From positions 1-24,398 of the IMG/VR virus record IMGVR_UViG_3300007346_000228: 24,398 nt of DNA; one strand, written 5' to 3'. The translations under genes were made by a program, and so were the position numbers. Of the stretch, positions 1,669 through 13,614 are shown one piece after another; the stretch's first letter is position 1; each line of letters opens with the position of its first letter. This DNA is from a virus. The notes under the pieces were generated by a model, which had not been told where the DNA came from, did no database searches, and saw only the letters and a list, made by a program, of their open reading frames with translations.

Positions 1669-2120
1669 ATATAGAAGACAGAATTAAGAGTCTATATCCT
1701 TTAGTAGAGGATATAAGGAAAGTAAGTAGGAAAGCTCATTATATTAATGCTCGGATGCTTTACGCTAAATATAAGCACTCAATAGAAGGCAAGAAGCTTG
1801 AGGAGATTGCTAAGGATTTAGGGTATAAAGAACACTCGACTATAATAAACCTATTAAGGAGGTTCGATTCTTTTTGGGATACTGAAGAGGGGTTTATTCA
1901 AGATTGGTATTTCATATCGGGAGACTCAGAATTAGAGGAGACGAATAAGCTTAAAGAAGAGATTAAGGAGCTAAAAGCCAAACTCTCTAAAGTTGAAGAG
2001 GTTTTCCCCGACATATACAAGTTAAGCGAGACAAGAAGGGAAGAGGTAGTTAATAAGGTTAATATAATAATAAAAGCAACTTTAAAAAATGAATTGGGAA
2101 GACAAAAAGAAATTAGATAG
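1665..2120 (+). CDS. DnaA domain IV-like DNA-binding protein
   Basis: This 151-residue protein has a helix-turn-helix close to the C-terminal DNA-binding domain of DnaA. Residues about 17-72 contain an ARMLYA helix, then KKLEEIAKDLGYKEHSTI, where G-Y-K-E-H-S-T-I parallels the DnaA signature (G-x-R-D-H-S-T-V). No AAA+ ATPase domain is present, so this is not a full DnaA. Residues about 90-115 are charged heptad sequence likely to form a coiled coil, which could support dimerisation. It directly follows the helicase-type gene with a 4-base overlap, so binding an origin or loading the replication machinery is a reasonable inference; a transcription regulator is the alternative. Confidence 0.65.
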   Translation: MNIEDRIKSLYPLVEDIRKVSRKAHYINARMLYAKYKHSIEGKKLEEIAKDLGYKEHSTIINLLRRFDSFWDTEEGFIQDWYFISGDSELEETNKLKEEIKELKAKLSKVEEVFPDIYKLSETRREEVVNKVNIIIKATLKNELGRQKEIR

Positions 2121-2643
2121 CAGTATAGAACTTAATAGGATGTTTAGTACTAATAACGTCGGGAGCTGTATTAAGCTTCTTAGAGAGCTTAAAAACAGTC
2201 TTAAAAGACCTCCCTCTTTTGAAGAGTGGAGGGGGTATTACTTTAAAAAAGTAGACTTAACTAAGTTATCTGAGATTAAGGCTTATATAATGTCTTTAGG
2301 ATATTCGGAGAAGGTCTCTAAAGAGTATGTATTTACGAGAACAGTAAAGCAGACATATAACGGCACTTTAATGGAGGCTAAAGCTAAAGAGCACTTAGAA
2401 AAAGAGAGGGGACTTAATCTTAGGTACTCTACAGAGGAAGAGGATACGGTTTACTGTATAGACTTAGTAGATGACGCTAAGAACTTAGCCTTTCAAGTAA
2501 AGCCTATATCTTATTTACATGGGAGCAACCCTTCACTAAATAAAGACAAAGAGAGAAATAAAGAAGCTCATATAAAAAGTAAATTTAAAGTAGAATTTAT
2601 CTACTACAGTAAAAAAAGAAACCAAATAACCTTTACCTTGTGA
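2089..2643 (+). CDS. MjaI-family-like PD-(D/E)XK restriction endonuclease
   Basis: This 184-residue protein has the features of the MjaI type II restriction endonuclease family. These are an early P-x-S-F-E-E-W-x-x-Y segment (residues 42-51), a helix with E96 (NGTLMEAKAKEHL), then R112, E117 and a nuclease core of D125 (CIDLV) followed by Q136-V-K138-P-I-S-Y. The D ... QxK arrangement fits the PD-(D/E)XK metal-dependent nuclease fold, and the KPISY stretch is typical of the family. MjaI itself recognises CTAG. No DNA methyltransferase gene is present in the window, so it stands alone here. Likely roles are degrading host or rival DNA. The gene starts 32 bases inside the previous one, suggesting translational coupling. 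The family call is from memory of its conserved blocks and the specificity is inferred. Confidence 0.68.
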   Translation: MNWEDKKKLDSSIELNRMFSTNNVGSCIKLLRELKNSLKRPPSFEEWRGYYFKKVDLTKLSEIKAYIMSLGYSEKVSKEYVFTRTVKQTYNGTLMEAKAKEHLEKERGLNLRYSTEEEDTVYCIDLVDDAKNLAFQVKPISYLHGSNPSLNKDKERNKEAHIKSKFKVEFIYYSKKRNQITFTL

Positions 2644-2645
2644 TT

Positions 2646-3191
2646 ATGAATAAATTAGATATTTTAAATAAACAGTACAATAAATGGGAGAGAACAGCTT
2701 ACTCTTTTATAAGTAGTTCTAACGGAGTATTAGAAGCTTCTGATATAGTTCAAGAGGCTTATATTAAAATAGTTAATACAGATAAGTTAGACCATATAGT
2801 AAACGACGAAGGGAAAGTTAACCCTTCATATATGTATTTAACTATAAGGTCTGTAGCTACTGACTATCTTAGAGTAAATCAAAGAGACACTAAAAGGACT
2901 AATAGATTAGACGAGGACGAAAACGTCTTTCAATTAGAGAGCGTAGGTTATTGCGAGCACTCAGCTAAATTTAATGAGCTAATCGATAAAATGAATGAAG
3001 AGGTTAACTCTTGGGCTTGGTACGATAAACAACTATTTAAGCTGTATAAAGATACGGGCTTCTCTATGCAGAAGCTATCAGAAGAGACTAAGATAAGTAA
3101 GACATCTATATTTACAACTCTAAAGAACTGTAAGGAGAAGCTGTTAACAGTCATAGGGGAGGACTATTATAATTATCTGAGAGGCATATAA
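2646..3191 (+). CDS. Phage RNA polymerase sigma factor (sigma-70 family, ECF-like)
   Basis: This protein of about 181 residues has two sigma-like blocks. Region 2-like sequence includes ASDIVQEAYIKI followed by a Y-M-Y-L-T-I-R-S-V-A-T-D-Y-L-R helix, as in ECF sigma factors, where this part binds the -10 element and core polymerase. Region 4-like sequence near the C-terminus, LFKLYKDTGFSMQKLSEETK and on through ISKTSIFTTLKNCKEKL, is a helix-turn-helix for the -35 element. There is no region 1 or 3, which fits the ECF group. An in-frame GTG at 2640 would add two residues; the ATG at 2646 is preferred. It is the last gene before a strong terminator and the structural genes, so it is the natural candidate for controlling late transcription. 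Confidence 0.72.
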   Translation: MNKLDILNKQYNKWERTAYSFISSSNGVLEASDIVQEAYIKIVNTDKLDHIVNDEGKVNPSYMYLTIRSVATDYLRVNQRDTKRTNRLDEDENVFQLESVGYCEHSAKFNELIDKMNEEVNSWAWYDKQLFKLYKDTGFSMQKLSEETKISKTSIFTTLKNCKEKLLTVIGEDYYNYLRGI

Positions 3192-3843: not shown

Positions 3844-4137
3844 ATGAGCGATAAGATAGACAAGAGGATTTTCAACGGAGGACATAAGACAGCGGGAAGG
3901 AAGAGTAAATCTGAGGAGCTACAGCTTATAGAGAGACTAACCCCTTTAGAGGCTACTGCGTTTCAAAAGTTAAAGATAGGTATCGAGTCGGGGGATTTTA
4001 AGTTTATTAAATTATTTTATGAATACTACTACGGAAAGCCTAAAGAGACTAAGGACGTAAGGATAACTCAAGAGCAACCTATATTCAATATAGACTATAA
4101 TAATATATCTGAAGACATAGAGGGAGATGAGATTTAA
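3844..4137 (+). CDS. terS: Putative terminase small subunit
   Basis: This 97-residue basic protein begins with a G-G-H-K-T-A-G-R-K-S-K-S-E-E-L segment followed by two predicted helices (LTPLEATAFQKLKIGIESG and FIKLFYEYYYG) and a GKPKE motif. That arrangement is common in short terminase small subunits of Bacteroidota phages. It would recognise the packaging site and recruit the large subunit. It sits directly before the large subunit gene and overlaps it by 11 bases. The leader (3808-3843) is only A/T, with no ribosome binding motif. The call rests mainly on position and size. Confidence 0.65.
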   Translation: MSDKIDKRIFNGGHKTAGRKSKSEELQLIERLTPLEATAFQKLKIGIESGDFKFIKLFYEYYYGKPKETKDVRITQEQPIFNIDYNNISEDIEGDEI

Positions 4138-5302
4138 AGTAACTACAGCTGTAGAGAAGCTCTTAAAGTTAACTAAAAGGAAGAGGGTTATTCAAGGGGG
4201 TACTTCTGCGGGTAAGACTGTAGGGATACTCCCTATATTAATAGATAAGGCTATTAGAGAGCCTATGTCTGAGATAAGCGTAGTGTCTGAGTCTGTACCT
4301 CATCTAAGGAGAGGAGCTTATAAGGACTTCTTAAAGCTAATGGTTAGCTTAAATAGATTTAACGACTCTCAGCTTAATAAGTCTACTATGACTTACACCT
4401 TCACAAACGGAAGCTATATAGAGTTCTTTTCAGTAGAGCAGTCGGATAAACTTAGAGGAGCTCGAAGGACTGACTTATACATTAATGAGGCTAATAACAT
4501 ATCTTTTGACGCTTACAAGCAATTATCTATTCGTACTTCGGGGACGATATGGATTGACTTTAACCCTACTTCTCGCTTTTGGGCTCATGATGAGGTGTTA
4601 AAGGATAACGACTCTGAGCTTTTAGTAATAACATATAAAGACAACGAAGCTTTACCTCAGACTATAGTAGATGAGATTGAGTCGGCTAAAGAGAAGGGTA
4701 AAGATTCTGAGTATTGGGCGAATTGGTATAACGTCTACGGACTTGGTAAAATCGGCTCTCTTCAGGGAGCATGTATAACAGAGTGGTCTGAGATTGACTC
4801 GTTACCTAAAGAAGCTAAATTAGTTAGTGCGGGTTTAGACTTCGGGTTTACTAACGACGCTTCGAGCCTTATATCAGTATATAAATACAACGGGCAATAT
4901 ATTGTAGATGAGGTCTTCTATCAAAAGGGGTTATTGAATAGCGAAATAGGAGCATTAATTAAAGATAGTAATTTAGAGGAGATATGTATCTACGCTGACT
5001 CCTCAGAGCCTAAGTCTATAGCTGAGCTAAAAACCTACGGGATTAATATAGACTCTGTATCTAAAGGGCGTGACTCTATAGTCTACGGGATTAACCTGAT
5101 AAATCAAGAAGGTATATTAGTAACTAAGAGAAGTAAAAACCTTATAAAAGAGTTAGGTAATTATATATGGAAAGTGGATAAGACGGGAGCTACTATTAAC
5201 GTCCCTATCGACGCTTTTAACCATTGCATCGACGCTCTTAGATATGCTATTGTAAGCCTATTAGAGAATAAACATAAAGGAGAGTATAACATATGGTTTT
5301 AG
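4127..5302 (+). CDS. terL: Terminase large subunit (ATPase and nuclease)
   Basis: This 391-residue motor protein packages phage DNA into the prohead. Walker A is GGTSAGKT at residues 24-31, and a Walker B-like hydrophobic strand ends in the catalytic E121 (TDLYINEANN). A coupling-like segment GTIWIDFNP follows at about 139-147. The C-terminal RNase H-like nuclease domain shows acidic residues at the expected places: D238 (AGLDFGFTND), D291 (IYADSSEP) and D369 (CIDALRYAI). The length is slightly short but complete for the PBSX/Terminase_3 type. The start lies inside the small subunit gene, in keeping with coupled translation. Confidence 0.93.
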   Translation: MRFKVTTAVEKLLKLTKRKRVIQGGTSAGKTVGILPILIDKAIREPMSEISVVSESVPHLRRGAYKDFLKLMVSLNRFNDSQLNKSTMTYTFTNGSYIEFFSVEQSDKLRGARRTDLYINEANNISFDAYKQLSIRTSGTIWIDFNPTSRFWAHDEVLKDNDSELLVITYKDNEALPQTIVDEIESAKEKGKDSEYWANWYNVYGLGKIGSLQGACITEWSEIDSLPKEAKLVSAGLDFGFTNDASSLISVYKYNGQYIVDEVFYQKGLLNSEIGALIKDSNLEEICIYADSSEPKSIAELKTYGINIDSVSKGRDSIVYGINLINQEGILVTKRSKNLIKELGNYIWKVDKTGATINVPIDAFNHCIDALRYAIVSLLENKHKGEYNIWF

Positions 5303-12963: not shown

Positions 12964-13614
12964 ATGAAAGGATTAAAATTAATAGAGTTATTTATAGACG
13001 ATAACGAAAAAAACGACGGGATATTTGCTATAAGCTTTGTAGAACAACCCGCTATAGAAGAGGACTTTATTCACTTGAATAAGCACGAGGTTAAGTTCAA
13101 GTCTATAGACTCAGAAAAAAGGTTGGTAGTAGGCTTTGCTTTAGTACCCGATAAAAAAATACTTAGAGTAAATAAAGGGGAGCAGTACGAGGTAGTTTTT
13201 TCTAAAGACACTGTCTTAAAAGCTTCTCATTTATATATGAAGCACCTAAACTTATCTAATACAACTGTAGACCACAAAGACAGAGTTAACGATGTTACTG
13301 TAGTAGAGTCTTGGATAGTAAACGACATTGATAATGACAAAATAAATACCTACGGACTTAAAGCGGTAGAGGGTGGTTGGGCTGTTATTTTTAAAGTAGA
13401 GAACGATGACGTATGGCAAGAGGTTAAAGAAGGTACATATAAAGGCTTCTCTATAGAGGGGAGATTTTCAGATAAGTTAGTAGAAGCGTCCGCAGACGAA
13501 GTTATAACAGAAGAGGTTATGACAGAAGAGAGAGCGGGAGAGCTTTTAGATTTAGATAGAGATTTAACTGAGGATGAGATTCAAGAAATAGTAAATTATA
13601 TAAATTCCATATAA
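12964..13614 (+). CDS. XkdF-type prohead protease
   Basis: The 216-residue protein matches the phage XkdF serine protease pattern: VDHKDRVNDVTVVESWIV at residues 102-119, GGWAVIFKVENDDVWQEVK at 137-155, and YKGFSIEGRF at 159-168. H104 and S163 are the probable catalytic residues, as in related herpesvirus-type (S21-like) prohead proteases. It would cut scaffold and capsid N-termini during head maturation. The acidic C-terminal tail (DRDLTEDEIQEIVNYI) may be autocleaved. It opens the head module behind promoter copy A, in line with control by the phage sigma factor. Confidence 0.8.
   Translation: MKGLKLIELFIDDNEKNDGIFAISFVEQPAIEEDFIHLNKHEVKFKSIDSEKRLVVGFALVPDKKILRVNKGEQYEVVFSKDTVLKASHLYMKHLNLSNTTVDHKDRVNDVTVVESWIVNDIDNDKINTYGLKAVEGGWAVIFKVENDDVWQEVKEGTYKGFSIEGRFSDKLVEASADEVITEEVMTEERAGELLDLDRDLTEDEIQEIVNYINSI

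Follow-up and report, generated by a model that had tools for sequence, protein, structure and literature searches.

A solitary MjaI-family nuclease gene in a phage genome devoid of CTAG sites

The nuclease gene and its neighbours

The stretch of phage DNA analysed here in full, referred to as the window, is 24,398 bp long. Positions 2089-2643 (+ strand) carry an open reading frame (ORF) with an ATG start, encoding 184 amino acids, which matches the Pfam family RE_MjaI (PF09568) with an E-value of 2.4e-10 and a score of 41 bits, the curated cut-off being 22.7; this bears out the original prediction of an MjaI-like nuclease at the locus. The alignment places residues 21-180 of the ORF on positions 16-162 of the 164-position profile, and 14 cellular members of the family all share V24, G25, W47, Y51, T89, G92, D125, K138 and P139 with it. 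The catalytic D plus (E/Q/S)xK pattern is present as D125 and Q136-V-K138, the phage protein having QVKP where the family has QIKP or SIKP. Judged by these sequence features, the ORF is a divergent RE_MjaI with an intact catalytic pattern, and it is open in both contigs that carry it, namely the window and the near-identical contig G001 described below.

The extent of the divergence is evident from the tree, in which the phage protein sits on a very long end branch (4.23; placement unsure) and, in the underlying alignment, shares no more than 24% identity with any sampled member. Profile comparison puts it nearer to the Bacteroidota long-form branch of the family (E 2e-9) than to the short-form branch (E 1.8e-5). 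Searches of phages, plasmids and genomes with the protein returned no relative beyond contig G001, and no relative of solved structure was found by sequence. The AlphaFold model, examined for a PD-(D/E)XK nuclease fold, is weak (pLDDT 66) and gave no significant fold match in Foldseek. CTAG is the site cut by MjaI; since the window enzyme is very divergent, its own cutting site could differ.

Upstream of the nuclease gene lies a DnaA-C-like helix-turn-helix gene (1665-2120, + strand), the last 32 bp of which run into the start of the nuclease; its Pfam match is weak (E 2.3e-5) and falls short of the cut-off, and it is not a methyltransferase. Downstream, a sigma-70-region-2-like gene (2640-3191, + strand), assigned through a Pfam match below cut-off (3.3e-4), overlaps the nuclease stop. 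The ORF at 505-1668 (387 amino acids) matches no family significantly, its best Pfam E-value being 0.078. The part of the phage lying outside the window includes genes for an ERF recombinase, a dGTP diphosphohydrolase-like protein and a DUF3799 PD-(D/E)XK protein, as well as a possible HNH gene.

In a profile search, no match to the PF01555 methylase family was found in the window or in G001, nor were other methylase families found among the ORFs of the window phage that were scanned. The cognate methyltransferase that a type II restriction-modification system calls for was thus not found in the phage, as the original prediction had held. One candidate was considered and rejected: the head maturation protease-like ORF at 12964-13614 (+ strand) matches PHROG 1530, annotated 'DNA methyltransferase', but only over the end of that profile (226-371 of 379), and it also matches head maturation proteases.

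Cellular members of the family are common. RE_MjaI scores above cut-off in 60 of 395 Bacteroidota genomes and, in all three of the Bacteroidota loci read, the gene adjoins an N4/N6 methylase. Among characterised enzymes, the CTAG methylases M.MjaI and M.BfaI belong to the type II beta 4mC class (PMC5867850). Profiles of the Bacteroidota long form found no viral copies.

Missing tetramers in the phage and its kin

The window contains no CTAG, against about 89 sites (178 strand-matches) expected from dinucleotide shuffles and 111 under a maximum-order Markov model. The trinucleotide CTA is followed by A 212 times, by T 201 times, by C 117 times and never by G; the absence of CTAG first noticed is thus real, and much greater than chance would give. 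Coding constraint does not account for this: when the synonymous codons of 27 genes were shuffled in 200 runs, with proteome and codon usage kept, a mean of 66.7 CTAG and a minimum of 44 were obtained, against none observed in the coding DNA (z -10). The shuffles therefore rule out base composition and coding constraint as the cause of the absence, the latter having been thought insufficient from the outset. Contig G001 (IMGVR 3300034374_004719, 32,319 bp) is 99.95% identical to the window and circularly permuted relative to it, so that together the two describe a circle of around 33.7 kb. Across this union CTAG is again wholly absent, with 137 expected, and is thus not frequent elsewhere in the phage.

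CTAG is not alone in being absent. Six further tetramers, passed over in the original prediction, have counts of zero in the union: CCAG/CTGG (85 expected), GATC (60), CCGG (42), GGCC (26), GCGC (21) and CGCG (19). The region lacking all seven spans the whole window (1-24,398, without regard to strand), as seen in word counts and codon shuffles, the latter giving extreme values for CCAG (z -13) and GATC (z -7) comparable to that for CTAG. The longer words GCNGC, GGNCC, CCNGG, CCNNGG and GATATC are also missing from the union, while AGCT, TGCA, TATA and TTAA occur at ordinary counts in the window phage. No relative examined has more than five zero tetramers, against seven here. CTAG was accordingly not accepted as exceptional in the phage: it is the largest entry in a list of at least seven purged tetramers, and no singular event. 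With at least six other common tetramers also missing, the enzyme probably accounts for only part of the CTAG loss.

The non-palindromic CCAG/CTGG deserves separate mention. ACAGG and GCAGC are likewise absent, although the NCAGN words are for the most part common. We know of no 4-bp enzyme for CCAG/CTGG.

Kin of the phage were found through the terminase large subunit (4127-5302, + strand). PF09568 was found in none of the 48 terminase-sharing contigs. By tblastn, the nearest kin have in common with the window phage the sigma-like gene, the small terminase gene and those genes that follow the terminase, and have no nuclease beside the sigma-like gene. As no relative but the near-identical contig carries the nuclease, its gain or loss cannot be traced inside the lineage.

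The nuclease-free kin differ widely in their CTAG content. Sites are kept, as observed over expected, in G006 (87/133), L021 (37/55) and L019 (36/31), but depleted in L003 (0/19), L007 (0/25), G040 (0/53), G012 (0/36), G032 (2/74) and G015 (1/40), contigs which may be incomplete. Comparison with relatives thus gives a divided answer to the proposal that avoidance follows the nuclease: G006 conforms to it, and G040 and G012 do not. In the window phage, the purge is neither specific to the site of the enzyme's family nor absent from gene-free kin. Since these kin either lack or keep CTAG, the window genome alone cannot tie the loss of CTAG to the gene, although enzyme gene, want of a detectable methylase and a zero count of the family's site do occur together in it.

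Sub-clades of the near kin also lack different palindromes. CATG is missing from all of L003-L018, CTAG only from L003-L007, and GATC and GGCC are nearly or wholly absent from L009-L018. Such differing sets of missing sites fit what changing host restriction would leave.

The same pairing in cyanomyoviruses

Short-form RE_MjaI genes are present in viral contigs and in named cyanomyoviruses. Synechococcus phage S-SM2 has such a gene and no PF01555 methylase, and its whole genome of 190,789 bp contains no CTAG where 299 are expected. CTAG is, moreover, the only missing tetramer in S-SM2 among those with an expectation of at least 8, which makes the S-SM2 enzyme itself a better candidate for the purge there. 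In S-H9-2, S-RIM32 and S-CAM3 the RE_MjaI gene is followed directly by a DNA methylase gene and CTAG stands at 0.13, 0.08 and 0.21 of expectation, respectively (S-H9-2 counted whole, S-RIM32 and S-CAM3 in samples of 100 kb). In ten cyanomyoviruses lacking RE_MjaI, CTAG stands at 0.81-0.96 of expectation (80-100 kb samples), so the S-SM2 purge is both specific to the enzyme's site and absent from gene-free relatives. Among the viral contigs, CTAG observed over expected is 4/82 for solitary copies of RE_MjaI and 73/206 for copies with a methylase, the contigs with solitary copies being mostly fragments and 'solitary' meaning that no methylase lies in the record. The cyanomyoviruses, to which the window phage is unrelated, provide strong independent support for a link between solitary RE_MjaI and zero CTAG. 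The suggestion that site loss is tied to the nuclease therefore holds well in S-SM2, and less well in the window phage with its seven purged tetramers.

Apart from S-SM2, where CCGG stands at 0.44, all the cyanomyoviruses examined have no or almost no CCGG, a sign of a host restriction pressure common to them.

The same pattern recurs with two other sites. GTAC is exactly zero in S-SM1 (500 expected) and Syn1 (583 expected), which have no PF01555 methylase and have in common with S-SSM5 and P-RSM4 an ORF of 199-203 amino acids (41593-42189 in S-SM1); in the latter two an N4/N6 methylase lies a few kb from the ORF, and GTAC is kept at 0.52 and 0.31, respectively. A prediction for GTAC was written down before testing on S-RIM44, P-HM1, MED4-213 and S-WAM2. 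S-RIM44 has the ORF, no PF01555 methylase and no GTAC (0/235), while P-HM1 and MED4-213 have both ORF and methylase and GTAC at 0.24 and 0.25. S-WAM2 fits only in part, having the ORF, another type of methylase annotated close by, and GTAC at a low but non-zero 0.06. The ORF is accordingly a candidate solitary GTAC nuclease in S-SM1, Syn1 and S-RIM44.

TTAA is missing altogether from S-ShM2 (598 expected) and stands at 0.79 of expectation or above in the phages counted other than S-ShM2 and S-BM3. S-ShM2 has a unique ORF of 165 amino acids (47039-47533; L204 7039-7536) with a D..EIK nuclease pattern, the homologue of which in S-BM3 is annotated as a restriction endonuclease; there a methylase is present and TTAA stands at 0.16. 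Neither the GTAC- nor the TTAA-associated ORFs have a Pfam nuclease match, so their role is deduced from co-occurrence. S-SSM4 carries a distant homologue (31%) of the S-ShM2 ORF and lacks TCGA (0 against 111 expected in 60 kb); this homologue possibly has another specificity.

Origin of the site loss and relation to known systems

The explanation we favour, with confidence a little better than even, is that the window phage carries a solitary MjaI-family type II enzyme for use against host or rival DNA, to which a genome without CTAG makes the phage itself immune, and that the sites were purged mostly by host restriction, the enzyme then being retained. The host would be Bacteroidota-like and the gene would have been taken from a CTAG restriction-modification locus, the methyltransferase being left behind. 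Host restriction systems would have imposed most of the purge, so pre-adapting the phage to retention of the enzyme; as kin without the nuclease are CTAG-free already, host restriction probably cleared the sites first and made the gene affordable. The enzyme would afterwards stop CTAG from returning and, in the infected cell, is predicted to cut host or rival-phage DNA bearing unmethylated CTAG. The loss of CTAG was thus probably as much a pre-condition for retention of the nuclease as a result of it.

Rather unlikely, but the most serious competitor, is the possibility that host restriction-modification alone removed CTAG and the other words, the nuclease being of other specificity or inactive and hence irrelevant. 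That phages avoid sites when under host restriction is well established (PMC6286503, PMC4687349), and the seven zero tetramers, the CTAG-free kin without the nuclease, the differing site sets of the sub-clades and the frequency of RE_MjaI systems in Bacteroidota would all be expected. Against it stand the intact catalytic pattern and an ORF that is open in two contigs; the meeting of a CTAG-family enzyme with the lack of both a methylase and CTAG would have to be coincidence, albeit a likelier one given the general purge. Less probable still is that the nuclease was acquired first and removed every site by self-cutting. The case of S-SM2, lacking CTAG alone, points at the phage's own enzyme rather than at hosts, and several gene-free near kin of the window phage keep CTAG; other such kin have lost it, however, and no phage enzyme was found for the six further missing words. 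Structural, mutational or coding causes (kinked DNA, VSP-like repair, TAG stops) are scarcely credible. Many prokaryotes do show CTAG depletion that restriction does not explain (PMC4687349), but such causes are contradicted by the codon shuffles and by the enzyme-free cyanophages that keep CTAG, the count is exactly zero rather than low, and CCAG, which VSP repair would make more frequent, is zero as well.

It is already known that phages avoid restriction sites, and the S-SM2 gene is annotated as a restriction enzyme. In the open-access papers searched we found none that connects a restriction enzyme carried alone by a phage with the complete disappearance of the enzyme's site, and PMC6286503 yielded no mention of CTAG or of solitary or phage-owned restriction-modification enzymes. 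We consider the chances evenly balanced that solitary type II enzymes are a recurring phage weapon or tool of host takeover, methylase-free in unrelated phages of up to about 190 kb and with immunity through site absence; CTAG (window phage, S-SM2), GTAC (S-SM1, Syn1, S-RIM44) and TTAA (S-ShM2) would be its members. The suggested route would allow a restriction enzyme to be used without antidote, the site being erased from the phage's own genome. If this is true, a missing word in a phage genome may betray an unrecognised enzyme together with its specificity. If it is general, missing-word counts would give a direct prediction of what unannotated phage nucleases cut, and a testable account would follow of the means by which some phages might break down host DNA or shut out rivals.

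Several known systems resemble the present one in part. With the CTAG type II systems of MjaI and its RE_MjaI (PF09568) relatives, the phage protein has in common the V-G, W..Y, T..G and D..(Q/S)xKP pattern, but it lacks a partner methylase and is of low identity to the members sampled. A second counterpart is S-SM2 gene SSM2_066 ('restriction enzyme type II R/M system 1'), likewise an RE_MjaI borne by a phage that has neither the methylase nor any CTAG; it differs in belonging to the short-form branch, in being found in a large T4-like cyanophage and in the restriction of the purge to CTAG. S-H9-2, S-RIM32 and S-CAM3 also combine an RE_MjaI gene on the phage genome with depletion of CTAG but, unlike the window phage, they have a methylase and retain some sites. 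Phage nucleases that destroy host or rival DNA, such as those of T4 and the homing endonucleases, similarly combine a nuclease with a protected self. The T4 nucleases are paired with modified phage DNA, and homing endonucleases likewise spare self; where these systems rely on base modification or site interruption, the window phage would be protected by loss of the site.
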